Shown: piece after piece, positions 2,773-58,097 of the stretch
Numbering within the stretch: position 1 is the first letter of the stretch
Layout: the number at the start of each line of letters is the position of its first letter
Program-made: the position numbers and the translations under genes
Source of the DNA: Dyadobacter jejuensis
GTDB taxonomy: Bacteria > Bacteroidota > Bacteroidia > Cytophagales > Spirosomataceae
DNA: 64,000 bases
Direction: 5' to 3'
Assembly: GCF_003149085.1 (NCBI RefSeq)
Contig: NZ_QGDT01000009.1
Location: 1-64,000, forward strand
The notes under the pieces: model-generated
Seen by the model: only the letters and a program-made list of their open reading frames with translations
The model's database searches: none
Told to the model about the DNA's origin: nothing

Positions 2773-3079
2773 GGTATAAGGTCCAGTATAAGTTCACAAA
2801 TGATACTGGACTCTTATCTATACGGGCTATCTCGATGGTTCAATTCGGACTCCAAATGGACGGAGATAAACTGTCTGCCTAAAGAACTCTAATAATAGGC
2901 CTTAACTGACTCTTTTCCCCTATTTTCGTCTGCACAGCATGGTTCTGCAACATACAGACCGACATTTGATTCATTTCAAATTATCCTCACTCTATTTTTT
3001 TCGGACATTTGAATCACGGAATTAAACAATTAATCAATCTACATATCCCATTTTACAAAAAGGGGTATATCTTACAACC
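2773..3079. other. Divergent promoter region between propeller-toroid gene and oxidoreductase operon
   Basis: This 307-bp gap separates two divergent PUL genes and must hold both promoters. It contains the direct-repeat element at 2944-2974 facing the rightward operon. A weaker leftward copy (ATGGTTCAAT at 2835-2844, poor partner at 2856-2865) could serve the leftward gene. A T-rich stretch at 2993-3002 lies 24 bases past the second half-site TTTG. No other gene-like structure was seen. Confidence 0.5.
2944..2974 (+). promoter_or_regulatory. Direct-repeat operator, copy A (oxidoreductase operon)
   Basis: Two 10-bp half-sites, TCTGCAACAT and TTTGATTCAT, start exactly 21 bp apart. The spacer begins ACAGAC. 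The same layout (TTTGNNNCAT, 11-bp spacer, TTTGNNNCAT, with spacer [AC][CG]AGAC) is found upstream of SusC1 and the gene at 17849. The element ends 106 bp before the start codon at 3080. A role as binding site for the AraC domain of the HTCS at 32119-36291 is inferred. Confidence 0.6.
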
Positions 3080-4459
3080 ATGAAAGATCCTAAACCAACG
3101 GTAAGCAAGGCTGCTTCACGAAGAAATTTCCTTAAAAATACGGCCGTAGCCGCCACCTCCTTCTACATCCTCCCTCGTCATGTGCTCGGCGGACCAGGCT
3201 TTGTAGCACCCAGCGACAAGCTCAATATAGCCGGTGTAGGCGTGGCCCGTATGGGGCGTTCAAATTTGAAGGCACTATCCTCCGAAAATATTGTGGCTCT
3301 TTGTGATGTAGACTTTGCCTATGCCTCGCCCACTTTCGAAGAGTATCCGAAAGCCAAACAGTTTAAAGACTACCGGGTTATGCTCGAGACGATGCATAAG
3401 GATATCGATGCTGTCATGATCGCCACGCCCGACCACACCCATGCTACCATAGCCATGGAGGCCCTTCGTTATAAAAAACATCTTTACGTACAAAAACCAC
3501 TTACCTATACCGTTCATGAAGCCCGGGAACTCGCCAAAGCCGCTAAGAAAGCCAAGGTAGTCACCTCTATGGGTAACCAAGGACATTCTAGCGACGACGC
3601 TCGAAAGATTAACGAATGGATATGGGATGGAGCCATTGGAGACGTGCATACCGTTTACGCCTGGACCAACCGCCCAAGCTGGCCTCAGGGAATGCCACGG
3701 CCTACTGAAGCCATGGCGATTCCTACTACATTGGACTGGGATTTATTCTCGGGTCCAGCCCCTCTACGAGCCTACCACTCGGCCTACCACCCTTGGAACT
3801 GGCGGGGCTTCAGCGATTATGGGATAGGTGCCTTAGGCGATATGGGAGCACATTTACTCGATCACCCCAACTGGGCACTGGACCTAGGGGCACCCATTAG
3901 TGTAGAAGCCTCCTGCACGCCCTGGGGCGGTACCAAGGAAGACCCAAATGTTACGTATCCCCTGGCCACCCAAGTAACCTATCAGTTTGCTGCCCGTGGC
4001 AAAAGACCCCCCGTAACATTGATTTGGTGCGACGGAGGCATCCTCCCCGCCCACCCCGACGAGCTCCCAGCCGAGGAACTCATGAACCGTGGTGGGGGCG
4101 TGATGATGGTAGGCGATAAGGGCAAGCTCATTCATGGCACTTATGGCTCCAAGCCTCGCCTACTGCCCGATACTCGCATGGCCGAATACAAGCAACCCAC
4201 CCCTACCATCCCCAGAATAGCCACCTCCCACGAAATGGACTGGGTACGGTGCTGCAAAGATGGCAAGGAGCAGCCTCTGTCTAACTTCGACTACTCCGGC
4301 CCACTTACCGAAATGATGCTGCTGGGGGTTTTGGCATCACGGTTTATCGGAAAAAAACTCTTTTGGAACTCCCAAGAAATGAAATTTACCAATGCTCCAG
4401 AGGCCAACCAATTTGTAACCAGAGAGTATCGTCGGGGATGGGAATTAGGTACCGTTTAA
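3080..4459 (+). CDS. Tat-exported Gfo/Idh/MocA family oxidoreductase
   Basis: A 459-residue NAD(P)-dependent sugar or polyol dehydrogenase family member. A twin-arginine signal (SRRNFLKN, Arg14-Arg15) precedes a hydrophobic stretch, so it should act in the periplasm with its cofactor already bound. A Rossmann motif (GVGVARMG) starts near residue 52. The family's EKP motif is present as Gln138-Lys139-Pro140, and the catalytic-region GDMGAHLLDH has His258. Length is normal for the exported subfamily. It leads a rightward operon; the sialate O-acetylesterase-like gene follows after 17 bp and a DUF1080 lipoprotein is third. In Bacteroidota, Gfo/Idh/MocA enzymes and DUF1080 proteins cooperate in a route that oxidises glycosides to 3-keto forms before cleavage. 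That role is plausible here but inferred. The operon is preceded by regulatory element A. Confidence 0.88.
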   Translation: MKDPKPTVSKAASRRNFLKNTAVAATSFYILPRHVLGGPGFVAPSDKLNIAGVGVARMGRSNLKALSSENIVALCDVDFAYASPTFEEYPKAKQFKDYRVMLETMHKDIDAVMIATPDHTHATIAMEALRYKKHLYVQKPLTYTVHEARELAKAAKKAKVVTSMGNQGHSSDDARKINEWIWDGAIGDVHTVYAWTNRPSWPQGMPRPTEAMAIPTTLDWDLFSGPAPLRAYHSAYHPWNWRGFSDYGIGALGDMGAHLLDHPNWALDLGAPISVEASCTPWGGTKEDPNVTYPLATQVTYQFAARGKRPPVTLIWCDGGILPAHPDELPAEELMNRGGGVMMVGDKGKLIHGTYGSKPRLLPDTRMAEYKQPTPTIPRIATSHEMDWVRCCKDGKEQPLSNFDYSGPLTEMMLLGVLASRFIGKKLFWNSQEMKFTNAPEANQFVTREYRRGWELGTV

Positions 4460-4476
4460 AGTAAGTCTGTAATAAA

Positions 4477-6420
4477 ATGATAAAATTGAAAATATTGATA
4501 GTAACGATATGCGCTGCGATGCTGCGCATACAAGTGGCACAGGCCGATATACGCTTACCCAAAATCCTAGGTTCCAATATGGTCCTACAACAGGGCCGTG
4601 AAAACTTGCTCTGGGGATGGGCTGATGCCCAAGAGCCGATAACGGTACGTTTTGCTGGCAAAACGCTACAAACCAAAACAGACAAACAGGGAAAATGGAA
4701 AATATCCCTTCCATCGATGGAGTACGGAGGACCCTACACGATTCAAATCCAAGGGAAAAATGCCATAGAGCTCACTAATATCCTCATTGGGGAAGTATGG
4801 GTATGCTCTGGCCAGTCGAATATGGGTATGTCGGTACGTTCCTCTTTAAACGCACCTCAGGAGATCGCCGAGGCAAACTACCCAAAAATACGACTCTTTG
4901 TAGTCCATGGCAAGGCGTCCACTACCCCGGCTGAGGACCTAGAAAATGGGGAATGGGTGGAGTGTTCGCCCACCACCGTAGGAGGTTTTTCGGGAGTCGG
5001 CTATTACTTTGGCCGAGAGCTTCATAAAAAGCTTTCAGGCATTCCGATAGGGCTTATTAACAGCTCGGTGGGAGGCACCAATGCCGAAACCTGGATGAAT
5101 GCCGAAGCCGTAAAGGAAAGTCCGGACCTACAGGAATCGTATAAAAAACTCTCGGCCTTCGACCCTCAAAAAGACCGACAAGAGAAATATGACCGTATCA
5201 AGGATTATCTGGGCGAGTTCCCCACCAACGATGCGGGCATGCGCAACGGCAAGGCCCTATACGCAGCCACCGACCTTCAAGATGACGACTGGCCATTGGT
5301 ACAAGCTCCTACCCCGTGGAATACCCTCATCGATGGAGTAGGCTGGTATCGGAAGGAATTCACCCTCACTGCCGAAGAGGCCAAAGGAGGCATTGCCCTG
5401 CACCTCTCCAAACTCGACGACAATGATATCACCTGGCTGAATGGCGTTCAGGTAGGAGCCACCAATTCCAGCGTAGAGGACAGAATCTATGTGGTAGACG
5501 CCCCAGGACTAAAGGTAGGCAAAAACCTATTGGCCATCCGAATCGTAGACACTGGCGGTAGCGGCGGAATGAAGGGAAAACCCGAAGAAATGTTCGTCCA
5601 AACCGATGCGCAACGGATCGCTTTAGGCGGGAAGTGGAAACATAAAATCACGGAGATACCCGCCAAACTTCTGGAACTCAATGCCAATGAATTCCCTACC
5701 CTGCTCTACAATAGCATGATCAACCCATTAACCCCTTATGGTATTCAGGGCGTGGTGTGGTACCAGGGAGAATCCAATACGGCCAACGCAGAGGAATATA
5801 GCCGCACCTTTCCCGCCCTTATTAAGGGTTGGCGCCAGCGATGGGGGCAAGGCGACTTCCCCTTTCTGTTCGTCTCATTGGCCAATGTGGGCATCCCTAA
5901 ACAGGAACCCTCAGAAAGTAACTTTGCAGAACTCCGCGAATCGCAAACCAAAACGCTAAGCCTCCCTAATACAGGGATGGCTCTGGCCATAGATCTGGGG
6001 ATTCCCCACGACATCCACCCCCCAAACAAGCAGGATGTTGGGAAGCGATTGGCGCTGAATGCTTTGAATAAAACCTACCAAAAAGAGGTCGTTTACTCGG
6101 GCCCTATGTACCAGTCCATGAAAATACAGGATAAGAAGGTAAAAATCACCTTCAATATCATGAACAGCGAACTGGTTGTAAAAGACCGATATGGCTATAT
6201 CCATGGCTTTACCATGGCCGGCAGCGACAAAAAGTTTTATTGGGCACAGGCAAGGCTGATCGATGAGCGTACCGTAGAGGTTACCTGCGACCGGGTGGCC
6301 ACTCCGGTGGCGGTACGCTACGGCTGGGCCGACAACCCCGACGATGTGAACTTATACAACCAGGCCGGGCTACCTGCCAATCCTTTTAGAACCGACAACT
6401 GGGCTAAGACTACTCCCTAA
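4477..6420 (+). CDS. Sialate O-acetylesterase-like SGNH esterase
   Basis: A 647-residue exported esterase of the sialate O-acetylesterase (SASA) type. The signal peptide spans about residues 1-23. The nucleophile block CSGQSNM places Ser114, a second block VVWYQGESNT lies near residues 425-435, and the acid-base block HDIHPP gives Asp512 and His514. Between the two SGNH halves, residues about 265-370 form an inserted jelly-roll-like segment (WYRKEFTL, ITWLNGVQVG) similar to the galactose-binding-like insert of this family. It would remove O-acetyl groups from sugars in the periplasm, but the true substrate need not be sialic acid because no sialidase or nan gene is nearby. The preceding oxidoreductase ends 17 bp upstream, which indicates co-transcription. 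A hairpin follows the stop. Confidence 0.88.
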   Translation: MIKLKILIVTICAAMLRIQVAQADIRLPKILGSNMVLQQGRENLLWGWADAQEPITVRFAGKTLQTKTDKQGKWKISLPSMEYGGPYTIQIQGKNAIELTNILIGEVWVCSGQSNMGMSVRSSLNAPQEIAEANYPKIRLFVVHGKASTTPAEDLENGEWVECSPTTVGGFSGVGYYFGRELHKKLSGIPIGLINSSVGGTNAETWMNAEAVKESPDLQESYKKLSAFDPQKDRQEKYDRIKDYLGEFPTNDAGMRNGKALYAATDLQDDDWPLVQAPTPWNTLIDGVGWYRKEFTLTAEEAKGGIALHLSKLDDNDITWLNGVQVGATNSSVEDRIYVVDAPGLKVGKNLLAIRIVDTGGSGGMKGKPEEMFVQTDAQRIALGGKWKHKITEIPAKLLELNANEFPTLLYNSMINPLTPYGIQGVVWYQGESNTANAEEYSRTFPALIKGWRQRWGQGDFPFLFVSLANVGIPKQEPSESNFAELRESQTKTLSLPNTGMALAIDLGIPHDIHPPNKQDVGKRLALNALNKTYQKEVVYSGPMYQSMKIQDKKVKITFNIMNSELVVKDRYGYIHGFTMAGSDKKFYWAQARLIDERTVEVTCDRVATPVAVRYGWADNPDDVNLYNQAGLPANPFRTDNWAKTTP

Positions 6421-6439
6421 GGCTACCTTTCATACCTTG

Positions 6440-6487
6440 ACCATCCACCCTAGTCCACCATTATTACTTCGGACCTTGGTGGATGGT
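6440..6487 (+). promoter_or_regulatory. Intercistronic stem-loop
   Basis: A perfect 10-bp inverted repeat (ACCATCCACC at 6440-6449 and GGTGGATGGT at 6478-6487) sits between the acetylesterase and DUF1080 genes. It is not followed by a clear T-run, so a processing or stabilising hairpin, or a weak attenuator, is more likely than a full terminator. Confidence 0.5.
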
Positions 6488-6538
6488 TAAATATGCCAGA
6501 CCTATTTTATATTAAAATTCCTGACTACTACCTTTCCT

Positions 6539-7252
6539 ATGAAAAAAAATCAGCTCCTCCCCCTCTTGCTATTCCTGGTGGCGCTTACTGCCTGCCAGAC
6601 GCAAAAGTCGTCCCGAGCCGGCTTCAATACGCTTACAAAAAAAGAAAGAGCCGCTGGATGGCAACTGCTCTTTGATGGAAAATCCATCGATCTATGGCAT
6701 GGCTTTCAGAAAAAAGAACTTCCATCGGGATGGCAGGTCGAAGACCACTGCCTCACCCGAGTAGCCAAAGGGGGTGACTTGGCTACCAACGAAACCTTTA
6801 AGAACTTTGAACTTACCTTGGAATGGAAAATCTCGGAAGCAGGCAATAGCGGTATATTTTTCCATGTTTCGGAGGATCCCAAGTACCACCGTGCCTATTC
6901 GACAGGCCCTGAAATGCAGATCCTCGACGACGACAAACACCCCGACGCCAAAGATCCTATACGTCAGGCCGGTGCTACCTATAACCTACTGGCCGTATCC
7001 CAACCGGCTGTAAACCCGGTAGGGACTTTCAACAAGGTGCGTATCAAGGTAGTAGACGGTCATGTTCAAAATTGGCTTAACGACAAAAAAGTAGGCGACT
7101 ATCAGCTGTTAAGCCCGGAATGGGAAAAGCTAGTACGAGAGGGCCGCTGGGCTTCTTCGCCAGACTATGGCCGGATCGGGTCAGGACCTATTGTTCTCCA
7201 AGATCATGACGACAAGGTATGGTTCCGTAACATCAAGATTCGCCGACTGTAA
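6539..7252 (+). CDS. DUF1080 (3-keto-disaccharide hydrolase family) lipoprotein
   Basis: A 237-residue lipoprotein with a lipobox ending LTAC (Cys19), followed by one DUF1080 domain from about residue 38 to 235. Family hallmarks include WQLLFDGKS near the start, the central NSGIFFHVSED, and the C-terminal VWFRNIKIRRL. The fold is a concanavalin-like beta-sandwich. Characterised members hydrolyse 3-keto-glycosides, which fits the Tat-exported oxidoreductase two genes upstream. Both proteins should meet in the periplasm or at a membrane. The gene lies 118 bp after the acetylesterase, separated by a hairpin. The ATG at 6539 is preferred over the in-frame-shifted ATG at 6493 because only it gives a lipoprotein signal. 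A strong bidirectional terminator follows. Confidence 0.88.
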   Translation: MKKNQLLPLLLFLVALTACQTQKSSRAGFNTLTKKERAAGWQLLFDGKSIDLWHGFQKKELPSGWQVEDHCLTRVAKGGDLATNETFKNFELTLEWKISEAGNSGIFFHVSEDPKYHRAYSTGPEMQILDDDKHPDAKDPIRQAGATYNLLAVSQPAVNPVGTFNKVRIKVVDGHVQNWLNDKKVGDYQLLSPEWEKLVREGRWASSPDYGRIGSGPIVLQDHDDKVWFRNIKIRRL

Positions 7253-7302
7253 AGGTCGTCTTCTTGGGTTCCTCGATTGGTATCGTGTATTCTTCTTTTA
7301 AT

Positions 7303-7340: not shown

Positions 7341-7367
7341 ATTTTTAATAACAACCCATGTACCACC

Positions 7368-10300
7368 TTACTCCGGATAATACATGGCATCAGCTTCAGA
7401 AGCCCCATTGCTTGTGCGGCGAAATGGCTCCCCAGGCTTAGGATCCCATTGCAGCCAACTATCTGGATCAGTAGATACGGGAAAGCTCAAAATACTTTGT
7501 CCATTCTTATTTTGGGCAGAAACGGCATATTCGTAGAGGATACCCTCTGAGAGTTCGTCGGTATAGTGACGGTCTGAGCCGGAATACAACAGTTCGAACC
7601 GATTAGCCCCCCGTTTTCTCCGATATAGTTTATACGTATTACAACCCAACACTTGTCCCCAAGAAAGTACAACTCGGTTATTTGAAATACCTAGTTTGAG
7701 CCCATCGGGGAAATGGGGCTTTTCTTTAAGAAAATAAACCGGGTATGCCGGTGTGGATTCACTATGGTGATCGGCATTGAAAGCAATAATACGCGCATGT
7801 ACCTTACTATGGGCATCGGGAGCCGATAGGGAATAGGTCGTCTTGGCGGTTTCACCCACTGTTTGCCAGGTTTTACACCCATCAAGGCTCATTTCTATTC
7901 TGTACTTAGAAGCCCCTGCTGCCTCGGTAAACATTAATTGAACTTTTCGATGGTCGTTTTCTGAGGCCATGATTTGCGGACGTGCTGGTATGGGTAGGCC
8001 GCTAGTCAATTGCCAGCTATGGGGCCCTGCCGGGAAATCCACCGAAAAGCCATGCCCTTCTATTTTGAAGGACTCCCTTCGACCATCGATATACAGCTTT
8101 AGATTTGGAGGTATGGCTGCCGTCCACTCCAGGGTGATTGTCGCCTTGGTGGGGCTATAAAACCTGCCGTCCATTTCCTGATGGTCTTTAAGGGATACAC
8201 TGACCCCTGCATCAGGATCGCTGGTGAGGACACGGAAATCCCCATTCCCTATATATTTCCCATGAAACAGGGCCATTTCTTGTCGTCCATCTCTATGTTT
8301 TCTAATAAAACCGGCAGTCCCCAAAAATCGATACGTTTCCCCTCGGGCCTGCATCTCCTGGTCACTTCTAAAAATAAGATCCGTTTGGTTCGATGGGGTT
8401 TCGATCTGGCAGCCAAAGGTTGTGGGTACCACTTTAAATCCCTTTTTATGGGATACAAAAACCATAAAATCCCCCATCCCATCGTACCATACCCCCTTAG
8501 ACTCTGCACCTGTTAACTGCGTTTTATTGATCTTACCCTTTCCGGTCCCTACCCTGATTACTTCAATATTGGGTAGCTCCTCATCGGGATGAGTAAACCA
8601 GGAGAAGCGCCCTCCAATATTATTGTTATAAACATCGTCGTAGGTAATAAAGTAATCCTTATCGATCAGCATAACACTCCTACTCTGGTAATCGGGCCAG
8701 GCATAGGCGCTGGTTTCGGAGGAGGTAATTTCCGTAAATTGGCCCACCCCGAAGTCGTATAAAGGCCTGTGTAGGACGTTTTGTCCTATTGACTTGAAGT
8801 GACCATCTTTAAATACCCCAAAGTTGGTCATCAGGTCCGTATCTTGAAGCCTTCGATCGCCCACATCCTCGCGTCCGTTATGACTATACGATTTGCCGCC
8901 TGCATAAAAGTAGATACCTCCGGTACCCCCTTCGGCGGGTACTCCCCAGCGGTAGTTGGGACCTGGATCTATCTGGCTCAAATGCACCGACAGTTCATCT
9001 GGCGTATCTACTCCAGCGCGCAATATAGTCCCATAACCAGTCAATTTGATACTTTTAAAGTCGGGCTTGGTTCCGGTGTCATACCCTTCTTGAGGGTACA
9101 TTAGTTCCCGAAATGCTTCGGGCTTATTGGCAAATGCCTCTTGGTCATCGTCGGTAGGCTTTGAAACATATCGTAGATTTTCGCCCAATACAGGATCATA
9201 ATGATCTAAGAGGGTACCCATCATCCATAAAGAGCTGGCCGCTTTTCGGCGGGCAGAATGTGCTCCTTGAGGCGGGTGGACTCTACGACTCCCTTCGCCC
9301 TGCGTGACGATTCCCCAAAAATGATGATCCAATCCTCCATCTTTGTTTCTATAAAAATCGAGAGATTCCCCGTCATAGGGAGCCGAAAGTGAATTTAATA
9401 TCCAGTTGCCAATGGATGCCGTTTGTGAACCTGCCATCCGATTTTTGGCCGCCTCCGTCTGATTCAACAAGAATGTAGACCGAATGGTAGGACGCAAAAA
9501 GGCCCATACATACGTCCCCAAGTTTTCGGTCCATCGCCCTCCCGTGGCATTCCAGGCCTCTACGGTGGGTCGGGTATGGTAGTGGGTGTTAAGGTCCACA
9601 TACTTTTCAAACAAATCGGCCCAATTTTCAGCTTCAGGGTGTTTTGGGAATTGAAAGGCCGCTAAGGCGGGTATCGACTTAACGTCGGCCAAGAAATTTG
9701 GATGCCCACTGAGCATATGTTTCATCGGCATATACGCTTCGTCGGCCGCTACATAGGCATGAAACAGGAACATAGCCGTCACCCTCCGTCGTTCTTCAGG
9801 TGTCAAGGAAGGGTAAAACCGATTCAACCCATCTATCCACTTTTCGGTAAATTGGCGGGCAGGAACGGGCCCATAGCCGCTATTTTGCCGGGTACCACTA
9901 AAGGGTAATTCCGAAATGTAATAATTGGAAAGAAAATCCTTCACAAACGAAGCACTCGATTTGAGCTTTCCGTCTTTAAAAATGACCGGGGCCGCTACCG
10001 AAGAATCGGGATAGGTTAAGGTCCAATCTTTAATTTTGTCCAAATGAATGGTACCGAATCGGTTTTGGAGGAAGGCATTATAGGATAATTGCGAAATTTC
10101 GGCCTTATACGTAAAGCCCAATGGATGTTGCTGGGGCTTGTTTAACGCTTCCAAACCGTTCATATAATCGATATCCTGCTGGTGGGCGTAACAACTCAGC
10201 CCTAAGGACCTACTCCCTTCTGACAGGGGCAGATCCCAGGAGAGTAGCCCATTCCGATAGTAAAAACTGACGTTAAGCAACTTAGCCGAATGCCAGATGC

Positions 10301-11384
10301 TATAATCCTTATCGTCCCATCGGGAGAGGTCCTCGGCAAAAACACCCAATGATTGCCCCCCTCGGGCATCCCAAAACAGGGTGGAGGTGATGGTCCGTTC
10401 GGCGGGCCAGGGTTCGAAATTACCTATTTCGAAGGGGATTTTCCCCTCCTCCCCATCGGGCATAATGCCATGGTGGAAACTTAATTTGGTTTGATCGATC
10501 CGTTCCCAGACAAAACGACCAAAACCTGGACTCGCCCCGTAAGTCTGAGCCTGTGGGCTATCGCCTTGGCTCGTAATGGTCCCTGGCTGGCCAAATGGAT
10601 GATTGGGAGCTTGTCGATGGGTAGGATTAAATCCTTTCCATACCATCGACCATTTTACCTTTTCTTTGGGTGCTATACCCGACATCTCCTCTACTAGTTC
10701 GACGAAGTCATAATCTTGAACGCACTTGATGGTCGCCTGATAGGTAGCGCTGTCCGAAAAGGTATAGGTTACCTGGTAGGTGGTAAACACGGGTCCCGAT
10801 GCTAACCTTTCCGTTTGAATATTGATCAGTTTTTTTGTTCCAGAATTGAATTCCGAATTACCCATAGCCTCCCGTCCCGACTGAGATACCTGTATAACAG
10901 GCCCAGGAACATTTCCCTGAGCAGGTAAGGACGACGGAATTCGAACAGTCAGTTTACTAGTTTGTATTACGATAGTCTCCTGTTGCTGCTGTTCTGTAAT
11001 AGGAGTAAATGCCTGGTTACCCTTTTCTAATACAAACGTCTTGGTGGTGCCTGAGGGCAAGTCACTCAAAAAACTTAAGGTAACAAGATACCGTCCATCG
11101 GCCGTTGTTCTGGCATTAGAGAACTGAAAGGGCACTTCTTGATTCTTTTCTTGGTGTACCAGTTTAAAATCCTGTGAATTTATTGGCCCGTCAAACTGAA
11201 CCTGGTAGTTTAAAAGCGTGGTGGGCCACCAGTAAAAGGCATGGTGCAGATGATCTTGTAAGACAAAAATCGCCTGCCCGTTTTGGAAACGGACAGGCGA
11301 AGCATTGGCCCACAAGGTTGTAAAGTTCAGTACTAAAATACTGATCAGCCATCCGTATTTAAGTTTTTTTACCAATACTTTCAT
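7368..11384 (-). CDS. Very large secreted polysaccharide-lyase-like protein with C-terminal FnIII domains
   Basis: A 1338-residue protein with a signal peptide (about residues 1-28). Residues about 30-200 and 200-420 are beta-rich. Residues about 480-720 are helical, with ENLGTYVWAFLRP and YMPMKHMLSGHPN, as in an (alpha/alpha) toroid. Residues about 780-1100 form a second beta region (GGIYFYAGGKSYSHNGRED, YFITYDDVYNN) reminiscent of heparinase II/III-type or PcRGLX/YetA-type lyase C-termini. Two fibronectin-III-like repeats follow at about 1130-1310 (KYRIEMSLDGCKTWQ, TYKLYRRKRGANRFELLYSG). Family placement is uncertain; a lyase or glycoside hydrolase acting on an acidic polysaccharide is inferred. 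It is the last gene of the SusC1 operon, 34 bp after the SGNH esterase. Confidence 0.7.
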   Translation of the reverse strand: MKVLVKKLKYGWLISILVLNFTTLWANASPVRFQNGQAIFVLQDHLHHAFYWWPTTLLNYQVQFDGPINSQDFKLVHQEKNQEVPFQFSNARTTADGRYLVTLSFLSDLPSGTTKTFVLEKGNQAFTPITEQQQQETIVIQTSKLTVRIPSSLPAQGNVPGPVIQVSQSGREAMGNSEFNSGTKKLINIQTERLASGPVFTTYQVTYTFSDSATYQATIKCVQDYDFVELVEEMSGIAPKEKVKWSMVWKGFNPTHRQAPNHPFGQPGTITSQGDSPQAQTYGASPGFGRFVWERIDQTKLSFHHGIMPDGEEGKIPFEIGNFEPWPAERTITSTLFWDARGGQSLGVFAEDLSRWDDKDYSIWHSAKLLNVSFYYRNGLLSWDLPLSEGSRSLGLSCYAHQQDIDYMNGLEALNKPQQHPLGFTYKAEISQLSYNAFLQNRFGTIHLDKIKDWTLTYPDSSVAAPVIFKDGKLKSSASFVKDFLSNYYISELPFSGTRQNSGYGPVPARQFTEKWIDGLNRFYPSLTPEERRRVTAMFLFHAYVAADEAYMPMKHMLSGHPNFLADVKSIPALAAFQFPKHPEAENWADLFEKYVDLNTHYHTRPTVEAWNATGGRWTENLGTYVWAFLRPTIRSTFLLNQTEAAKNRMAGSQTASIGNWILNSLSAPYDGESLDFYRNKDGGLDHHFWGIVTQGEGSRRVHPPQGAHSARRKAASSLWMMGTLLDHYDPVLGENLRYVSKPTDDDQEAFANKPEAFRELMYPQEGYDTGTKPDFKSIKLTGYGTILRAGVDTPDELSVHLSQIDPGPNYRWGVPAEGGTGGIYFYAGGKSYSHNGREDVGDRRLQDTDLMTNFGVFKDGHFKSIGQNVLHRPLYDFGVGQFTEITSSETSAYAWPDYQSRSVMLIDKDYFITYDDVYNNNIGGRFSWFTHPDEELPNIEVIRVGTGKGKINKTQLTGAESKGVWYDGMGDFMVFVSHKKGFKVVPTTFGCQIETPSNQTDLIFRSDQEMQARGETYRFLGTAGFIRKHRDGRQEMALFHGKYIGNGDFRVLTSDPDAGVSVSLKDHQEMDGRFYSPTKATITLEWTAAIPPNLKLYIDGRRESFKIEGHGFSVDFPAGPHSWQLTSGLPIPARPQIMASENDHRKVQLMFTEAAGASKYRIEMSLDGCKTWQTVGETAKTTYSLSAPDAHSKVHARIIAFNADHHSESTPAYPVYFLKEKPHFPDGLKLGISNNRVVLSWGQVLGCNTYKLYRRKRGANRFELLYSGSDRHYTDELSEGILYEYAVSAQNKNGQSILSFPVSTDPDSWLQWDPKPGEPFRRTSNGASEADAMYYPE

Positions 11385-11418
11385 TTATTTATGTTTAGGA
11401 ATAGTCGATTGTTGTACA

Positions 11419-12681: not shown

Positions 12682-12729
12682 AAATATATTTAACGATAAT
12701 TAAGACCGCTTTTAAGTTTCATTCCGAAC

Positions 12730-12773
12730 CGATTCTACCCACCTTGACCAGTGAGCCAAGATCGGTAGAATCG
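12730..12773 (-). promoter_or_regulatory. Intercistronic stem-loop after SusD1
   Basis: A perfect 10-bp inverted repeat (CGATTCTACC at 12730-12739 and GGTAGAATCG at 12764-12773) encloses a smaller CTTG/CAAG stem. It lies between SusD1 and the SGNH esterase. No T-run follows, so it may set the ratio of SusCD to downstream enzymes by partial termination or mRNA stabilisation. Confidence 0.5.
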
Positions 12774-12784
12774 TATCGATATCC

Positions 12785-14179: not shown

Positions 14180-14197
14180 AATAATTTCGGATTTAGA

Positions 14198-17320: not shown

Positions 17321-17406
17321 AATCTAGAGTAGTTTAATACCTGTTAAATGTTCATTCTCTTCGATCATGCAAATATGACTCTAGATAGAAATTATAGCAA
17401 TCCATT

Positions 17407-17670: not shown

Positions 17671-17701
17671 ATTGCAACAACCAGACACGTGTTTGGCTCA
17701 T
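17671..17701 (+). promoter_or_regulatory. Direct-repeat operator, copy C (639-residue gene)
   Basis: Half-sites ATTGCAACAA and TTTGGCTCAT start 21 bp apart, with spacer CCAGACACGTG. It shares the AGAC spacer core with copies A and B. It ends 148 bp before the start at 17849, a longer leader than the other copies. This links the gene to the same regulon although it stands alone. Confidence 0.55.
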
Positions 17702-17848
17702 CTCCTTAATCCAATTTAATAATTCCATAATACATTTACCTGTTCGATTTTTAGTAAGAAATACGTTTAAAATGCTTGTTCCTAATAACGCCTGAGCACA
17801 GATGAGACCATCTCTATAAAATGATTTTCAACCAACCTAATTGAAGAA

Positions 17849-20071: not shown

Positions 20072-20090
20072 TTTCACCCAGCTAGCCTGA

Positions 20091-24650: not shown

Positions 24651-25310
24651 TCAGGCGAATACTTTATTCCTCTTCATTTGTCTGACACAATCGCGCAATT
24701 CGAGGGCATTCGAAACAGACAGTTTATGATATATAGAGCCTTTTATGGTGCTGATAGTCGAAGGTTTTCGATCGAGTTTACGAGCGATCCAGGTGGTCCC
24801 CTTTCCATCTGCTAAATAATCGGCAATCTCCGTTTCGCGGTTCGACAACCTCACGGTACCCTTGGCCCTCGATATTTTCCTATTCTTCGAGCGTGGCTTG
24901 TCAAACATCCATGAAAGCAAATCGGTACTGCTAATATATTTTCCACCGTTTGCTATTATCCTGACACATTCCCCCAGTTCGGTGGAGCTTGCTTCTTTAG
25001 AGATATAGCCGCTTATCCCAATCCTTAAGTAATTCGAGATTGTTTGAACGTCCATTTCTCCCTCATCGTAGAGAATCACCCTACAGTCGGGAAATCTCTT
25101 TTTCCACTGTTTCATATTTTCAAGGCTTTCACTCCTATGCTGTTCATTGAGGCCTAGGATGAGTATATTGGGTCTCTGACCCGTCTCATCATGAGGCAAA
25201 TAGCTTAAACTCTCCGATTCTAACGTTAAAATATTTTTAAACTCTGCTTCCAGAAAATACTTTAAGCCAGCCCTTAGGATAGGGTATTGCTCTATTAACA
25301 GAATGGTCAT
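24651..25310 (-). CDS. LuxR-family regulator with degenerate, Asp-less receiver domain (copy 1)
   Basis: A 219-residue protein with a receiver fold (about 1-120) and a LuxR/NarL helix-turn-helix (about 150-212). The start at 25310 (MTILLIEQ) is chosen over the longer frame from 25361 because the receiver begins there. The receiver lacks phosphorylation chemistry: the phospho-acceptor position reads LILG (Gly53) and the acidic pair is Glu7-Gln8, while the switch-region Lys in SKEAS remains. The recognition part RKPSTISTIK is shared exactly with the regulator at 46002-46637. Control by phosphorylation is therefore unlikely; protein contact, ligand or abundance may set activity. No cognate kinase is adjacent. 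It probably binds DNA, with targets unknown. Confidence 0.85.
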   Translation of the reverse strand: MTILLIEQYPILRAGLKYFLEAEFKNILTLESESLSYLPHDETGQRPNILILGLNEQHRSESLENMKQWKKRFPDCRVILYDEGEMDVQTISNYLRIGISGYISKEASSTELGECVRIIANGGKYISSTDLLSWMFDKPRSKNRKISRAKGTVRLSNRETEIADYLADGKGTTWIARKLDRKPSTISTIKGSIYHKLSVSNALELRDCVRQMKRNKVFA

Positions 25311-26019
25311 AGTATTTAGGTTTATTGTTAATGAAATTGCTGATGATGTGATTCCCTGCATCCATATATCTAGACAGTTATAAAGGACTAGGTATAGTAT
25401 GCTTTCTAAAAAAGTGAGATTGATAAAATGCTAGATGAGGGCAACATCATCCAAAGCTTCCTATTGACTATTAGAAGGAAAATAGATGAGCTATCAAATA
25501 CTTCCTATAACAAAAGTATAGCATTCTTAATGGACCGTAGGGGGATTTTCTTATTTAATACCTATGAATATCTTATAGTTGGCTATAAAAAAATAAATAC
25601 CAGTGTTAGAATTTCTGTTATTTCTAACTCACGCTTCCTTCTGGTCATACTCGAATAAAAATCAATAAATTAAATAGTATATTTTTTATACTATACAAAC
25701 ATTATCCTATTGTAAATACAAATCATAATGTATGGCTATAGGGATTAAACAAGTATTAAATTAAAATTTATCCGGTTTCACCTTACCAAAAATAATTGAA
25801 TAATAAATAGTACATTTTCACTTTTAGGTAAGATAACAGCTTCAAGCCATTAGGAATTTAAGGTGTGATTATCTATTCAATAAAGGTGGACTATTTGGTC
25901 ATCACCTGTCGTACTATACGTTGGTAACAAACGAGTCGATTCCGCTACCAGTATATAGAAACAGAAAGGCCTGAATCTATAAATAGACTCAGGCCTTACT
26001 TTCTGGTGTACTTTCTATT
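25311..26019. other. Long AT-rich intergenic region
   Basis: About 700 bp separate the Asp-less regulator from the DUF5017 gene. A 76-codon plus-strand frame at 25428-25658 has no signal, domain or neighbour support and is not called. A perfect palindrome lies at 25674-25694 (ATAGTATA, five T, TATACTAT), which could be a protein-binding site or a transcript end. The terminator for the SusC2 operon is at the right side. Confidence 0.5.
25966..25997 (-). terminator. Rho-independent terminator of the SusC2 operon
   Basis: A 9-bp perfect stem (AAGGCCTGA at 25966-25974 with TCAGGCCTT at 25989-25997), extended inward by TCT/AGA, is followed leftward by a T-rich stretch. It lies 23 bp past the stop of the DUF5017 gene. 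Confidence 0.82.
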
Positions 26020-26961
26020 TTACTCCGTGACGGTAATAGTCACCGTTTTGACCACCTGCTTCTCTTCCCCCAACAAGTTGTTTGCAGCCACGAAACTAGC
26101 CTGATACGTACCGGGCGTATTGTACTGGTAGGTGTAACCGGTTTCCTTGGTCGTCATCCCTTTTAGGAAAGTCCCTAGATCGGGACTGACTCTGGTGAGG
26201 TCAATAGGCCCAGTAATCGCCCAGGCTTCGGCAGGAACGGTTGCGGCGGCATCGGAAGTCGCACCGGTGATCACCAGAGAAGTAGTAGAAACCGACCAGT
26301 TATAGCTAGCAGATCCTAGGTAGGTTCTCCATCCTGGGCTCATCCCATAATTCACTCCGTAGTTGGTGATGGCCGTCGAAGTATGATTGGCAAGGGTATA
26401 GCTAGTACCATCGGGTAACTCATTGCTGACTTTTAGATTAGAGATGGTCCATTTGTTTTGTTTTGATCCCACCTCACCCACATATTTAAAGGCGATATAG
26501 GTGGATTTGTCGACGACCATCGCACTAGACAGGTCGATAGCCCCCGAACTCGTTGACGACCCTGTGGAAAGCTTAGCTTGCGAAGTAAGATCGATCCAAG
26601 TGGCATTTCTCACGTTTTGCCAAGATTCATCAGTCGTAGCTCCAAAACCTACAAAATCGTTTGAGGCCAGTATTATCAAGGAGTTGGGCTGCGAACCATT
26701 CGCTCTGGCGGAAGTAAATTGTAGCGTCGGGGTGCCTTCCGCCGACAGACGTTTTACATAGGCCTGGCGTTTACCTACCTCTCCGGAATAAAAGGTTATA
26801 AAGTCGGGGTTTCCAGAAAAGCTGAATTCGACGGGCTCCCCTACCTGATAGGTTGTTTTGGGGGTAGTGACCTCCAAGGAAGGGCTGGTTAGTTGGGGTT
26901 GGTTACAGGCGTTTAAAGCCAATAAACCCACCAGTAGGATATGAAAAATATTCTTTTGCAT
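26020..26961 (-). CDS. DUF5017-type surface glycan-binding lipoprotein
   Basis: A 313-residue lipoprotein with lipobox LNAC (Cys19). An N-terminal Ig-like segment (about 25-90, TYQVGEPVEFSFSG, DFITFYSGEVGKR) matches the start of DUF5017 proteins, followed by a jelly-roll-like body and a C-terminal PKD-like strand set (YNTPGTYQASFVAANN). Genes of this type follow SusD in many PULs and occupy the SusE/SusF position, so a surface glycan-binding role is inferred. It lies 28 bp after SusD2 and is the last gene of the SusC2 operon. Confidence 0.8.
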   Translation of the reverse strand: MQKNIFHILLVGLLALNACNQPQLTSPSLEVTTPKTTYQVGEPVEFSFSGNPDFITFYSGEVGKRQAYVKRLSAEGTPTLQFTSARANGSQPNSLIILASNDFVGFGATTDESWQNVRNATWIDLTSQAKLSTGSSTSSGAIDLSSAMVVDKSTYIAFKYVGEVGSKQNKWTISNLKVSNELPDGTSYTLANHTSTAITNYGVNYGMSPGWRTYLGSASYNWSVSTTSLVITGATSDAAATVPAEAWAITGPIDLTRVSPDLGTFLKGMTTKETGYTYQYNTPGTYQASFVAANNLLGEEKQVVKTVTITVTE

Positions 26962-26989
26962 AATTTAATTGTTCAGTAATTAAGGAAGT

Positions 26990-28534
26990 CTACCATTCTG
27001 GATTTTGAGTAAGCATTTTGTTTAAGGAGAGTTCCCGTAAAGGAATGGGCTGCAACAAATGCTTCTGGGTAATGTTATTGGCAGCAACGGTCGCCGGCCC
27101 TCTAAAACTTCCTCCCATTAAATACGCCTCCTCGGCCAATGTTTTCATGGTAGGAATCAGGATATTCCAACGAATCAAGTCTAGCTTCCTCCAGCTTTCA
27201 AAACAAAGCTCGCGGGAGCGTTCATCCTTAATCAGTTTTCTAAATTCCCCTTGGGAGCTTACCATTTCAGCATCCGTATAAAGGGTTGTCTGAGCACGTT
27301 CTCGTACCTGGTTCAGCCACTGATAGGCCAGAATAGTGGGACCATTCACCTCATTTTCGGCCTCTGCCGCCATGAGCAACACATCGGCATAGCGCAGTAA
27401 GGGGAAATTGGTCCCATTGTAGTTTTTGATTTTATTCGCTGTTAATTCATATTCGCGGCGCCATTTACCAATATTGCGGTTATAGATTTGGGTAGGAAGC
27501 CAGTACACTTTTTCAGGCCCAAAATTTTTGGAATAGGCAAAGGGAGCTATGGCCCAGTCGCGGCGGGTGTCCGTAGAGTCATAAAGATCATATAAATGCT
27601 TCTGCACCCTATATTGGGCCCCCGAAAACCCTAAATCAAGATCCTGCTGGCTGATCCCGTTATTATTTCCTAATCCTCCGGTTTCTCCATAGGGTTCGCC
27701 GGCTCCAGTAGTAAAAAATTCCAATTCCCATATCGACTCTTTGGTGTCATACTTGTTCTGTATCAGGTTGATAAAAAACTGCTCGTAGCTTGGATTCAGT
27801 TCATGGTAACCCAAGTCGATCACCTGCTTACTCCATTTGAGGGCATCGGCATACCGTGCTACATCGTTAACTGGGAAACCGGCTTTGTAAAGGTTTACCC
27901 TAGCCAGAACCCCCCAAACCGCCGACTTAGAAATCCTACCGGCCATATTTTGATCCAAAATACTAGGCACAAGTTTTTCTGCCGCTTCCATTTCCTGAAT
28001 AATAAAATCGTACACCTCATCGGCAGGAACCCGCGGATAGGCAATATCGTTAACAGATGCCGTGGGTAATGTTCTAAGGGGAACTGCCCCATAGTTTTGC
28101 ACCAACACAAAGTAATAATAAGCCCTTAAAAATCTAGCCTGCCCTTCAATATTGTCTCTGGCTTCCTCAGACATTTCGGGCTTCTCCAGGTTATCGAGCA
28201 GCACATTGGCTCTTTCAATCCCGGTGTACATATATCTCCAAATCAGATTCACGACATTATCACCCGCATCATATACATACACTTGCGCTCCTCGGGAAGC
28301 AGTAGTAAACATCTCGTCGGCGACGTCCCAGGTGGTAGTAAGGCCATCTCCCCCGTTGTACATTCCTGTTTTGCCAAGCATGTCATATACTCCATTTAAG
28401 GCATAACTGAGCTCGGTTTCATTATTATAATAATACTGAGGCGAAAGGAAATCGGATGGCTGGGTGTTCAGCGCTTCTTCACAAGAGAACAACCCCGTTG
28501 CAAATAGCAGCGTAAGGATTACTATTTTTTTCAT
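26990..28534 (-). CDS. SusD/RagB-family glycan-binding lipoprotein (SusD2)
   Basis: A 514-residue SusD-type lipoprotein. The start is set at 28534 (MKKIVILTLL), because it gives a signal and lipobox LFSC; the open frame extends upstream to 28705 but would overlap the end of SusC2 and destroy the signal. TPR-like helices include GQARFLRAYYYFVLVQNYGAVPL at about 143-165. The C-terminal part has LLRYADVLLMAAEAENEVNG, ERSRELCFESWRKLDLIRW and the final LTQNPEW. It caps the SusC2 pore and binds oligosaccharide at the cell surface. The gap after SusC2 is 19 bp. Confidence 0.95.
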   Translation of the reverse strand: MKKIVILTLLFATGLFSCEEALNTQPSDFLSPQYYYNNETELSYALNGVYDMLGKTGMYNGGDGLTTTWDVADEMFTTASRGAQVYVYDAGDNVVNLIWRYMYTGIERANVLLDNLEKPEMSEEARDNIEGQARFLRAYYYFVLVQNYGAVPLRTLPTASVNDIAYPRVPADEVYDFIIQEMEAAEKLVPSILDQNMAGRISKSAVWGVLARVNLYKAGFPVNDVARYADALKWSKQVIDLGYHELNPSYEQFFINLIQNKYDTKESIWELEFFTTGAGEPYGETGGLGNNNGISQQDLDLGFSGAQYRVQKHLYDLYDSTDTRRDWAIAPFAYSKNFGPEKVYWLPTQIYNRNIGKWRREYELTANKIKNYNGTNFPLLRYADVLLMAAEAENEVNGPTILAYQWLNQVRERAQTTLYTDAEMVSSQGEFRKLIKDERSRELCFESWRKLDLIRWNILIPTMKTLAEEAYLMGGSFRGPATVAANNITQKHLLQPIPLRELSLNKMLTQNPEW

Positions 28535-28553
28535 ATTCTTGTAGGATAAAATT

Positions 28554-31500
28554 TTAGAATGAGGCGTTAAGTCCAAAAACAATGGTTCGGGCCCTAGGAT
28601 AGGGCGAAAAATCAAATCCGGGAGTAAGCGCAGAGTGCCGGGTCGACACCTCTGGATCGATTCCCGAATATTTGGTCCAGGTATAAAGGTTCTGTGCAGA
28701 AACATAAATACGAGCCGACTTCATTTTAATAGGCTGTAAGATTCTAGATGCAATATTATATCCCAACGAAACGGTTTTCAAACGTAAGAAAGAGGCATCC
28801 TCTACCAGACGACTGGTATACAGATTTTGCCCATATCCATTATAACGAGGGATATTACTGCTTGTATTTTCAGGCGACCAACGATCTAAATAGGTAGCGT
28901 ATTGATTGGTATTCGACGAAGCTGATGTGGCATTTTCGAAGGCTACCCGATTGGCATTTAGGGCGTCGTTACCGTATGAAAACTGGAAAAAGACGTTTAA
29001 ATCAAATCCTTTGTACTCAAAATTATTATTTAATCCCCCTATAAAATCTGGATTAGGATTACCTATGGTAGTATAATCGTTTAGATTGATAATCCCATCG
29101 TTGTCCAAATCGCGGTATTTGGCATCTCCAGGCTGAATACTAGCTCGGTTGGCTCCATTTCCAGCTATGTTGGGTTTTAAGGCATAGGCCCCGCTGGCGA
29201 GACGGTCAAAATCTTCGTACTGATATACCCCATCAAATATCACCCCGTACATCATCGCTATGGGTTGCCCAATTTTGGCAATATACACCGGATTAGAGTT
29301 GTAAATGGCCCAGGTAGTAGAGGTAAGGGCTTCTTGGCCTTCAGTCAAGGCCAATACCTTATTCTTGTTAAAGGTGATGTTAAAACTGCTATTCCATTTA
29401 AAATCGGGCCGGGTAATGTTAAAAGAATTAAAGGATAGTTCTATACCACTGTTAGATACAGCGCCAATGTTCTTAAAGGCTTGCGTGTAACCCGTAGCAT
29501 AGGGCAGCTGGGCATTCAAGAGCAAATCATTGGTCCGTTTATAATAGTAATCCCCCGTAAACGTCAATCGATTATTGAAAAAAGCGAGATCAATTCCAGC
29601 GTTTATGGTGTTGGTCAACTCCCATTGCAGATCAGGATTCGCCAAGGCGGTAATGACGGCCCCTTTGTCGGGAACAGCATTGTCGAATGAATAGCCATTA
29701 TGAGAGGCAAAGTTCAACGAAGACAGATAGGCGAAGTCACTCACCCGGTTATTACCTGCTACTCCATATCCTAATCGTACCTTCGCATCGGTTACGAAGT
29801 TTAGGTCTTTCATAAATTCCTCTTCTACCAGCTTATAAGCCACCGCTGCCGAAGGGAAATAGCCCCAACGGTTCCCTTTAGCGAATTTGGAAGATCCATC
29901 CCCCCTAATAGTAAAGTCTAACAAATATTTAGATTTGAAATCGTAGTGTAAACGAGTAAACAAGGACTGTAAAGCCCATTGAGAGCTATATGATTGGATA
30001 GTTTGCGGGGTTCCTTCGTCGATTCCGCTTAATCCGAGCGCTTCGTTGGGCAGCTGTGTTCCTACGGCCCCAAACCGAGCAGAATTGGTAGCTTGTTGGC
30101 TATAACCGCCCAGAATAGAGAAGTTATGAAACTTGCCTATTTTTTTGCGATAGGTGAGTGTATTTTCATTACTAAAGTTGTTAGACTTAGTAAAATATTC
30201 ACTTCCATTTACCCCTAATGATTGCGGATAGGCAGGGTTCCCAGTTCGAGTCAGGGAATTATTGAAAGTTGCATCCTGATAGAATCCGCGGTTGATATTT
30301 CCCGTAATTCTCAATTTTAGGTCCTTGGTGATAGCATATTCCGCATAAGCGCTGGCATTTATTGAGGTATTGAATTTTTCGCGCTGCTCGTTTTGAACCT
30401 GAATGAGCGGGTTGGTTCTGTAGTCGGTGAGTGGATTTATAGCGGGGTCGGTCAAGGACTCTTCAAACGGCAAAGTTTGATCCGTATTAAATGGCCGATA
30501 ACTCCAGATACTGTACATCAAACTAGCCGAAGTTGAGCCCCCATTGGCCGTGGCAATGGTTCCATATTCCTTGGTATCGCTATAATTGACGTTGATCCCT
30601 ACCTTAAACTTTGGGTTAATGGTTTGATCCAGCTTAAACCGGCCCTGATACCTTCTAAAACCCGTATTTACAAATATCCCATCCTGATCGAGTACGGAGC
30701 CCGAAAAAGAATATTTAGTGGTATTACTACCACCACTTACCGAGATACTATGGTTGTGCATATGTGCTCGTTGCAACACCTTTTCGTACCAATCTATGCC
30801 CTCCACACTCTTATAATCCTCCAGAGTTTTTTCGGGAAAGGTCAAATACCGATTGATAATATCGGGGTTATTGGATTCTAACTGTAACTTAACAAACTCA
30901 TATGGACTGAGCACCTCCAGGCGATTGATGTCATCCAAGAACCCGTAAGAGCCGTTATAATTAATAGAGGGTGCTCCCGTTTTCCCACTTTTGGTGGTGA
31001 TCATAATCACCCCATTCGCTCCTCTTGAGCCATAGATAGCGGTGGCACTGGCATCCTTTAGGATATCAATAGATTCGATATCGGCAGGATTTAGCGCATT
31101 ATTATCATTACTTTCTATAGGAAAGCCATCGATCACATATAAAGGCGAATTGTCTTGGGTTAGCGAGTTGGCTCCACGGATTACGATATTGGGCAAGGAC
31201 CCAGGCTGGCCGTCATTAGAAGTCACCTGCACACCCGCTACCCTACCGGCTAGGGCTTCATCGAAGGACTTTACCGGAGCCAGGTTCATATCGGTAACAT
31301 TTACGGTGCCCACAGAGCCCGTTAAGTCCTTTTTATTGGCCGTTCCATAGCCTATCACCACCACCTCATTCAGGTTATCTTCACTAGCGGCCAGACGGAT
31401 ATTATGGACGGTTTTGGATCCAATACTCACCTCCTGAGTGACAAAGCCAACAAAACTAAATACCAACACGGCATTGTCGGCCACCCGATCGAGGGCGTAT

Positions 31501-31745
31501 TTCCCTTCTACATTGGTAGTAGTACCAGTTTTGGTGTTTTTCACGACGATACTTACACCGGGTAAAGGACTCCCTTTTTCGTCTGTTACAATACCAACGA
31601 CGTTTTTATCCAAAACGACCTCAGTAGCATGAGCCATAGACAGGCTTATGCCAAGGCCGATTATCAATGCGTTCAGGAAGGATGATAACCTACTAAGGTA
31701 GCGGTTCTTATTCCTGAAATAGAGAATAGCAGAATTTTTTCTCAT
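28554..31745 (-). CDS. SusC/RagA-family TonB-dependent transporter (SusC2)
   Basis: A 1063-residue outer-membrane transporter. The long signal region ends near MAHA (residue 40). A carboxypeptidase-like domain follows (VGIVTDEKGSPLPGVSIVV), then the TonB-box-like LNEVVVIGYGTA, the plug (ALAGRVAGVQVT, PLYVIDGFPIE, DILKDASATAIYGSRGANGV) and the barrel with terminal Phe (VFGLNASF). It is first in the leftward operon SusC2-SusD2-DUF5017 and divergent from the HTCS gene, which is the classic arrangement for regulator and target. A weaker copy of the direct-repeat operator lies 80 bp upstream. Confidence 0.97.
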   Translation of the reverse strand: MRKNSAILYFRNKNRYLSRLSSFLNALIIGLGISLSMAHATEVVLDKNVVGIVTDEKGSPLPGVSIVVKNTKTGTTTNVEGKYALDRVADNAVLVFSFVGFVTQEVSIGSKTVHNIRLAASEDNLNEVVVIGYGTANKKDLTGSVGTVNVTDMNLAPVKSFDEALAGRVAGVQVTSNDGQPGSLPNIVIRGANSLTQDNSPLYVIDGFPIESNDNNALNPADIESIDILKDASATAIYGSRGANGVIMITTKSGKTGAPSINYNGSYGFLDDINRLEVLSPYEFVKLQLESNNPDIINRYLTFPEKTLEDYKSVEGIDWYEKVLQRAHMHNHSISVSGGSNTTKYSFSGSVLDQDGIFVNTGFRRYQGRFKLDQTINPKFKVGINVNYSDTKEYGTIATANGGSTSASLMYSIWSYRPFNTDQTLPFEESLTDPAINPLTDYRTNPLIQVQNEQREKFNTSINASAYAEYAITKDLKLRITGNINRGFYQDATFNNSLTRTGNPAYPQSLGVNGSEYFTKSNNFSNENTLTYRKKIGKFHNFSILGGYSQQATNSARFGAVGTQLPNEALGLSGIDEGTPQTIQSYSSQWALQSLFTRLHYDFKSKYLLDFTIRGDGSSKFAKGNRWGYFPSAAVAYKLVEEEFMKDLNFVTDAKVRLGYGVAGNNRVSDFAYLSSLNFASHNGYSFDNAVPDKGAVITALANPDLQWELTNTINAGIDLAFFNNRLTFTGDYYYKRTNDLLLNAQLPYATGYTQAFKNIGAVSNSGIELSFNSFNITRPDFKWNSSFNITFNKNKVLALTEGQEALTSTTWAIYNSNPVYIAKIGQPIAMMYGVIFDGVYQYEDFDRLASGAYALKPNIAGNGANRASIQPGDAKYRDLDNDGIINLNDYTTIGNPNPDFIGGLNNNFEYKGFDLNVFFQFSYGNDALNANRVAFENATSASSNTNQYATYLDRWSPENTSSNIPRYNGYGQNLYTSRLVEDASFLRLKTVSLGYNIASRILQPIKMKSARIYVSAQNLYTWTKYSGIDPEVSTRHSALTPGFDFSPYPRARTIVFGLNASF

Positions 31746-32118
31746 ACAGTTACTGGGTTTAAAAATGGTGAACTAAAATGATGCTGTAAAAGTAACTTGG
31801 TTCGAGTCAAGGGAGCTTGGCAGGATGTTGCAAATGCTATTTGAAATTGATCAAATCGAAGAAAATATTACATTTATCGACCCTAAAGAGCCTTTTTTAG
31901 TAATACTTAATGGAAATAATGGATATTTATAATGCTTTAAGTCTCCTTATGTTAACAAGGGTATCCCTATTATAGAATCGAAAGGAGCGGGCAGTAGCCT
32001 TACGGCTAAAAGTAATTATTGAAACATTTTTTTGCATTCGATTCCGTTACTCCGGGGTCCACCATAAAAGCATCGAATCGGAAGGGGGAGTTCCGAAAAA
32101 CTAACCTGACAAAGTATT
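31746..32118. other. Divergent promoter region between SusC2 and the HTCS
   Basis: This 373-bp gap holds operator copy D for SusC2 (31825-31855). Near the HTCS start, GCATTCGATTCCG (about 32034-32046) and GCATCGAATCGGA (about 32070-32082) form an imperfect repeat in the probable leader. No TTTGNNNCAT pair faces the HTCS gene, so the regulator may not use this element on its own promoter. No coding frame is supported. Confidence 0.5.
31825..31855 (-). promoter_or_regulatory. Direct-repeat operator, copy D (SusC2 operon), weaker
   Basis: Read leftward, TTTGATCAAT and TTTGCAACAT start 21 bp apart. The promoter-proximal half is identical to those of copy B. The distal half keeps TTTG and the final AT only, and the spacer lacks the AGAC core. 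It ends 80 bp upstream of the SusC2 start, matching the position of copy B. Confidence 0.5.
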
Positions 32119-58086: not shown

Positions 58087-58097
58087 AAATATCTGAC

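Follow-up and report, generated by a model that had tools for sequence, protein, structure and literature searches.

Known operators of hybrid two-component systems

Direct repeats averaging 21 bp between sites have been predicted for 16 hybrid two-component systems (HTCSs) of Bacteroides, together with multi-operon regulons, in the text of Ravcheev et al. (2013; PMC3878776). A comparable arrangement is present in the first 64,000 nt of a contig of Dyadobacter jejuensis (GCF_003149085.1, NZ_QGDT01000009.1, positions 1-64,000, forward strand; this whole stretch is called the window), where four direct repeats precede genes of a polysaccharide utilization locus (PUL) that lies in two halves. The repeats are very probably the operators of the HTCS encoded at 32119-36291 on the plus strand, which would act as one regulator for four operons in both PUL halves. 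It is because the repeat and its distance to a promoter box are common to all four promoters, and because the repeat is kept in relatives with the HTCS, that one sensor very probably switches both parts.

As with the Bacteroides operators, a 21-bp direct repeat stands before PUL operons and the regulon possibly includes distant operons (PMC3878776); the likeness is that of the layout described in the text of that paper. The layout is already known from Bacteroides, and the motif, TTGCAACAT-N11-TTTGCAACAT, is probably new. Both marks of such direct repeats are found here, namely about 21 bp between sites and conservation before PUL operons in genomes with an ortholog of the HTCS. The protein itself carries Reg_prop sensor, Y_Y_Y, HisKA, HATPase, receiver and AraC-type DNA-binding domains (PF07494, PF07495, PF00512, PF02518, PF00072, PF12833), and hence unites a periplasmic propeller sensor with an AraC-type domain in a single chain linked to SusC/SusD genes, as is typical of its class.

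Electrophoretic mobility shift assays on susCD promoters are described, in the text available, for receiver-DNA-binding-domain proteins of the HTCSs BT4124 and BT4663 (PMC11253607). These belong to the same protein class, and the CHIP part of their inhibitory motif as given in that text is present in the window HTCS; unlike it, they have other glycans and operators. Mapping of the DNA-binding profiles of BT4124 and BT1734 is mentioned in a meeting notice (PMC13037399). A more distant parallel is AraC at araBAD, where, according to the portion of the source consulted, two neighbouring half-sites beside the polymerase site are occupied together to recruit RNA polymerase (PMC4760080). In contrast to AraC, the proposed regulator of the window is a membrane hybrid kinase, and its promoters are of the TANNTTTG type.

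The four direct repeats

The first-pass annotation of the window had placed 21-bp-spaced repeats at 2944, 17407, 17671 and 31825, and direct reading confirmed the coordinates as well as the spacing: the half-sites start exactly 21 bp apart in all four. The first operator (2944-2974, plus strand) reads TCTGCAACAT-acagaccgaca-TTTGATTCAT and stands before the 3080-7252 operon. The second (17407-17437, minus strand; TTTGCAACAT-agagacatcca-TTTGCAACAT) precedes the SusC1 operon and is the sole perfect repeat, each of the other three having at least one imperfect half-site. The third (17671-17701, plus strand; ATTGCAACAA-ccagacacgtg-TTTGGCTCAT) lies before the gene of a 639-aa protein, and the fourth (31825-31855, minus strand; TTTGATCAAT-ttcaaatagca-TTTGCAACAT) before the SusC2 operon. 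All are oriented toward PUL gene starts, as had been claimed, and the measured distances from repeat end to start codon are 106 bp (3080), 87 bp (SusC1, 17320), 148 bp (639-aa gene, 17849) and 80 bp (SusC2, 31745), in agreement with the range of 80-148 bp given earlier. The spacer core [AC][CG]AGAC is indeed present in the first three repeats. The repeat at 31825 is the weakest, with a poor distal half-site (TTTGATCAAT).

Conservation of the site with the proposed regulator

HTCS orthologs were surveyed in 222 genomes of the family and in a sample of 341 genomes of the order. A match of more than 1000 bits was taken as an ortholog and was found in 13 genomes besides the own one (44-52% identity); G092, in which the match is broken or partial, was counted as the 14th, and G136 and G005 (34-35% identity) were excluded. 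No ortholog from outside the family appeared in the 341-genome sample, the seven matches listed all being of the family. The DNA-binding domains of 13 orthologs are 66-81% identical to that of the window HTCS. Sites were scanned for in 16 regions (14 ortholog regions, G136 and the window), with gene starts in relatives taken as those of the longest open reading frames (ORFs), and 34 places scored at least 15/20. Twenty-two of them were used (18 ortholog and 4 window sites), having been picked before the promoter box described below was known. Of the 12 left out, six fell within ORFs and six were noncoding; five of the noncoding ones overlap a used site, and the isolated sixth (G038, 25731) was left out without further reason.

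A site near the HTCS is found in all 15 ortholog genomes, the own genome included, mostly before SusC or PUL-enzyme genes; in two of them it is weak. At least one used site scoring 15/20 or more lies near the HTCS in 12 of the 14 other genomes, and the earlier expectation that the sites would be conserved in relatives is accordingly borne out, clearly in these 12 and weakly in the remaining two. All but three of the 18 used ortholog sites stand 35-153 bp before SusC or another gene; of these three, two precede the HTCS gene by 228 and 237 bp, and the one of G038 falls within the long form of its downstream ORF. No place scored 15/20 in the regions of G136, G039 and G208, yet G039 and G208, which are near-copies, have a weaker site (CCTGCAACAT-N11-TTTGGCACCC or -GC) before the gene preceding SusC/SusD. 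Six such preceding genes were scanned with Pfam, and four encode right-handed beta-helix proteins (G126, G184, G092, G083), the other two a GH88-family (G002) and a GH43-like protein (G039).

The motif also emerges without the consensus. Among 7-mers upstream of 19 SusC genes in 13 ortholog genomes, the most enriched were ACATCTC (9/19; 0.16 expected) and GCAACAT (10/19; 0.36 expected), and of the GCAACAT-like pairs 8-60 bp apart, 8/10 were at 21 bp. When matrices were built with the group of the tested genome left out, a site ranked first in 11 of 14 regions. The strict consensus, allowing up to two mismatches in the 222 genomes, was found at 72 places among the matches listed, in 58 genomes, and it matched 13 of the 15 ortholog genomes (own included). 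In 9 of the 14 other ortholog genomes the HTCS has such a match no more than about 20 kb away, and in G071, G203 and G208 the matches are elsewhere; at this threshold G060 and G039 had none.

In some relatives a site also occurs upstream of the HTCS gene itself, as in G184 (L153) and G203 (L148) and, in weaker form, in G126 (L121) and G020 (L127), which suggests that the regulator may control its own expression there. The HTCS gene of the window differs from these relatives in having no upstream site.

A promoter box at fixed distance

With columns numbered from 0 at the start of the repeat, TTT is found at column 64 or 65 in all 22 preselected sites (18 of relatives and 4 of the window), and likewise in the weak sites of G039 and G208, which were recognised later. 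A fixed distance of this kind is what an AraC-type activator promoter should have. The TTT belongs to a box that resembles TANNTTTG and begins at column 60 or 61, matched at 5/6 or 6/6 in 17 of the 24 sites and at 5/6 in all four of the window. Such a box corresponds to the housekeeping promoter of Bacteroidota, TAnnTTTG at -7 with TTTG near -33, as cited in the part of PMC7366714 available. The boxes of the window are GACATTTG (3004-3011, plus strand, 5/6 to TANNTTTG), CATATTTG (17370-17377, minus strand) and TACATTTA (17731-17738, plus strand), each at column 60, and TACTTTTA (31787-31794, minus strand) at column 61; transcripts are predicted to start near 3015, 17366, 17742 and 31783, respectively.

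The offset was fixed by the relatives alone, the best columns being 60 and 61. A 5/6 box at this learned offset occurs at 2.1% of the intergenic positions of the window, which gives P ~2e-7 for all four sites if they are independent; when the window sites were tested by themselves through rotation, with any column allowed, the value for the four was 0.00025. Among the 12 places left out, none has a 5/6 box at the fixed offset and two have TTT there, both being the second register of a triple repeat in G020 and G072. These two genomes (L128 and L138, respectively) carry three tandem half-sites at 21-bp steps upstream of SusC; the operator is thus present there in two overlapping registers, each followed by TTT at the fixed offset.

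The box follows the end of the proximal half-site by 29-30 bp; if the centre of the box is set at -7, the half-sites fall at about -46 and -67. The sites hence look like activator operators at these positions, since the box stands at a fixed offset. In the case of AraC, araI1 and araI2 are 17-bp half-sites with a 4-bp gap, that is, 21 bp between starts, and they overlap the -35 element; the placement of the window half-sites presumably matches theirs. The fixed distance is a feature absent from the first-pass annotation, and it strengthens the case and predicts the transcript starts. It was not found described in the open-licence literature text searched (including PMC3878776 and PMC10994844).

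It can hardly be the case that the repeats are merely -33 elements of promoters or chance matches of TTTG-rich DNA. The half-sites do start with TTTG, as a -33 element does, and most matches of the pair pattern in the genome look like chance; the box is nevertheless separate, at column 60-61, too distant from either TTTG for a -33/-7 pair, and the best-conserved core is GCAACAT, not TTTG. Conservation across columns 34-41 reaches 0.6 bit at most in the 18 ortholog sites, with no conserved -33 TTTG, and in the portion of PMC7366714 seen, a -33 motif is not identifiable in Flavobacterium johnsoniae either.

Specificity in the window and in the genome

Single half-sites occur in the window at the level of chance (5 found, 5.13 expected). 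The degenerate pair with at most two mismatches matched the own genome 104 times, against 53 for the reversed control. With at most one mismatch, the 5.76-Mb genome has eight matches. Half of these are in the window, namely 17407, 2944, 31825 and one in coding sequence at 12615; 17671 matches at two mismatches only. The bare pair pattern is thus enriched in the window but is not specific genome-wide, and most of its matches resemble chance. Addition of TTTR at -7 reduced the matches with at most two mismatches to seven, including the four sites; the other three are 12578, in the GDSL gene, and C1:409653 and C18:12076, both within long open frames. At up to three mismatches there were 33 matches against 23 in the reversed control. 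A scan of the own genome with the exact consensus (up to three mismatches) proved too strict, finding 17407 only, with four matches for the reversed control.

The 18 ortholog sites, with an effective number of 12.7, were combined into a matrix that excluded those of the window, G039 and G208. It ranks the four repeats first to fourth in the 64 kb, in the order 17407, 2944, 17671 and 31825, with scores of 26.4, 26.1, 23.1 and 16.2. The next score is 13.3, at a place without the -7 box; no high-scoring site precedes the genes at 20-25 kb or the HTCS gene of the window. In 20 shuffled windows the best scores reached 18.9 and the fourth-best 9.7 at most. The four sites are separable from chance because of the ranks given by the relatives' matrix and the box at fixed offset. 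Under the refuting condition set earlier, that random coding DNA be matched as often as PUL promoters, the bare pair pattern by itself would partly fail.

A probable single regulator for both halves of the locus

Operons in the window are proposed from gene spacing. The putative operon at 3080-7252 (plus strand) encodes a glycoside 3-dehydrogenase-like protein, a SASA esterase and a 3-keto-disaccharide hydrolase domain; the dehydrogenase-like protein belongs to the BT_2158 family with 560 bits, under the NCBI cut-off of 750. It is likely a 3-keto-glycoside route under the same HTCS. The second putative operon (7368-17320, minus strand) comprises SusC1, SusD1, a GDSL esterase and a 1338-aa protein (7368-11384), and the gene at 17849-19768 (plus strand) encodes the 639-aa protein, which is linked to SusC1/SusD1 in G082 and G071 and whose homologue in G082 is part of a 1037-aa ORF. 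SusC2, SusD2 and a DUF5017 protein are encoded in a fourth unit, again presumed to be an operon (26020-31745, minus strand). For the 1338-aa, 639-aa and 761-aa (36438-38723) proteins, searches of Pfam and NCBIfam at E 0.001 were negative, and sequence matches in the PDB were no better than E 0.36.

The best evidence for one HTCS serving both halves is its linkage, in different genomes, to homologues of the one or the other. In G082 and G071 a single cluster holds the HTCS together with close relatives of the first half (SusC1 83-84%, SusD1 81%, 639-aa protein 66% and 1338-aa protein 67-68% identity, and the GDSL protein 69% in G071). When the SusC1 promoter of the window is aligned with those of G082 and G071, they agree mainly at the operator and ATATTTG, the repeat at 17407 being conserved in both relatives. 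The proximal half-site reads TTTGGAACAT in G082 as against TTTGCAACAT in the window, and the DNA-binding helix differs too. In G002 and G038, the HTCS adjoins homologues of the second half (SusC2 43-44%, SusD2 38-39%, DUF5017 29-31%), and in G126 it adjoins both types. The comparison of genomes thereby supports the earlier suggestions of an AraC-type operator with two-turn spacing and of a probable single regulator for both halves.

It is unlikely that the regulon is restricted to one half, the repeats being real HTCS operators and the weak one at 31825 not placing SusC2 under the HTCS. The poor distal half-site and the lowest score of this repeat speak for such a restriction, as does the situation in G126, G002 and G038, where the SusC2-type genes have no site of at least 15/20 directly upstream and the site instead precedes a PUL-enzyme gene upstream of SusC2. 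On the other side, 31825 stands 80 bp before SusC2, its proximal half-site is perfect and its -7 box is where the offset predicts, and SusC2-type operons adjoin the HTCS in the same three genomes.

Other candidate regulators and contrary evidence

Of the ORFs of at least 120 aa in the window, 47 were listed and 30 scanned with Pfam, the rest mostly overlapping larger ORFs. The HTCS at 32119-36291 is the sole AraC-domain protein among these 30, as had been noted earlier. Binding of the repeats by another regulator, either the NarL/LuxR-type response regulator encoded at 24651-25361 or another HTCS of the own genome, is quite improbable. The former gene is located between the PUL halves, and six further matches to the HTCS, one partial, are found in the own genome; however, the LuxR-type protein is the best match of no ORF in 11 regions (10 ortholog genomes and G136, not an ortholog), the sites accompany the clade of the window HTCS, and the last recognition helix, by reading, differs in the five aligned own-genome paralogues.

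Several observations weigh against the assignment of all four sites to this HTCS. Five further HTCS-like proteins of the own genome have ends that align with the AraC-type domain. In two of the 20 shuffled windows the best score exceeded the 16.2 of 31825, and the matrix is not wholly independent because the ortholog sites used for training were first picked with the window consensus. With their own group left out, the sites of G071 and G039 ranked second and that of G208 third, and those of G039 and G208 were identified by visual inspection once the rule had been established. The strict consensus also matches 45 of the 207 genomes without an ortholog, and the reversed control matches many genomes too. 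The box is matched at only 4/6 in 7 of the 24 sites, and a better box lies elsewhere downstream in 3 of 22 (G126 24256, G184 32558 and G092). Finally, the HTCS is about 50% identical to those of G082 and G071, as against 83-84% for SusC1; therefore operon and regulator have different histories.

Two other regions of the window encode Reg_prop proteins. A 718-aa protein with a Reg_prop propeller match (616-2772) is encoded divergently from the 3080 operon and showed no DNA-binding domain in the Pfam scan. At 48511-59906, a third SusC/SusD pair lies near a Reg_prop histidine kinase, in which no receiver or AraC domain was found, and a separate LuxR-type response regulator. No HTCS site was found upstream of this third SusC, and its promoter (54787) scores -10.9 with the ortholog matrix.

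Proposed mechanism

Under the assignment to the HTCS at 32119-36291, a periplasmic oligosaccharide would be sensed by the HTCS, whose kinase would phosphorylate its own receiver. Two AraC-type DNA-binding domains could then occupy, as a head-to-tail dimer, the half-sites two helical turns apart. The proximal half-site would thus place the activator just upstream of the poorly conserved -33 region, and the bound protein may hold RNA polymerase at a promoter without a good -33 element. In this way one regulator would turn on the 3-keto-glycoside enzymes, SusC1/SusD1 with the esterase, the 639-aa protein, and SusC2/SusD2 with the DUF5017 protein, and the regulon would span the intervening genes that lack a site.

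Other hybrid two-component systems and wider meaning

A scan of contigs with the HTCS as query gave 590 loci, of which 80 were kept as controls for other HTCSs; full-length matches among them are at most 33% identical, and shorter partial ones up to 44%. The 25 SusC promoters taken from these loci include some near-copies (e.g., L008 and L010). The ortholog matrix scores at most -0.6 on them. Their best lag is 21, at which 14/25 reach at least 9/12; at other lags from 13 to 39 this holds for 1-11 of 25, the 11 being at lag 33. Among the 14 repeats, five have a -7 box (at least 5/6) that lies 26-34 bp downstream of where the proximal block begins, and L008, L010 and L014 among these five are look-alikes; of the remaining nine, four have a box only elsewhere and five have none. 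Of three SusC promoters near own-genome HTCS paralogues, only C5 has a clear 21-bp repeat (10/12) along with a 6/6 box, with the same layout and different letters.

These data are suggestive of a general promoter grammar of HTCSs across Bacteroidota, consisting of a 21-bp direct repeat, a -7 box at fixed distance and no -33 element, with half-site letters and offset specific to each HTCS clade as part of the same claim. Such a grammar is possible but doubtful, because only 5/14 of the other repeats have the box at 26-34 bp.

For the HTCS clade of the window, for which no motif was found in the portion of the literature searched, the repeats provide an operator that can be tested and a probable regulon, along with predicted start points for four transcripts. 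Two SusC/SusD systems would thereby be tied to the same sensor as a 3-keto-glycoside operon. If the general grammar is true, the operators of many unassigned HTCSs would be readable from sequence alone, and their regulons could be proposed without expression data.

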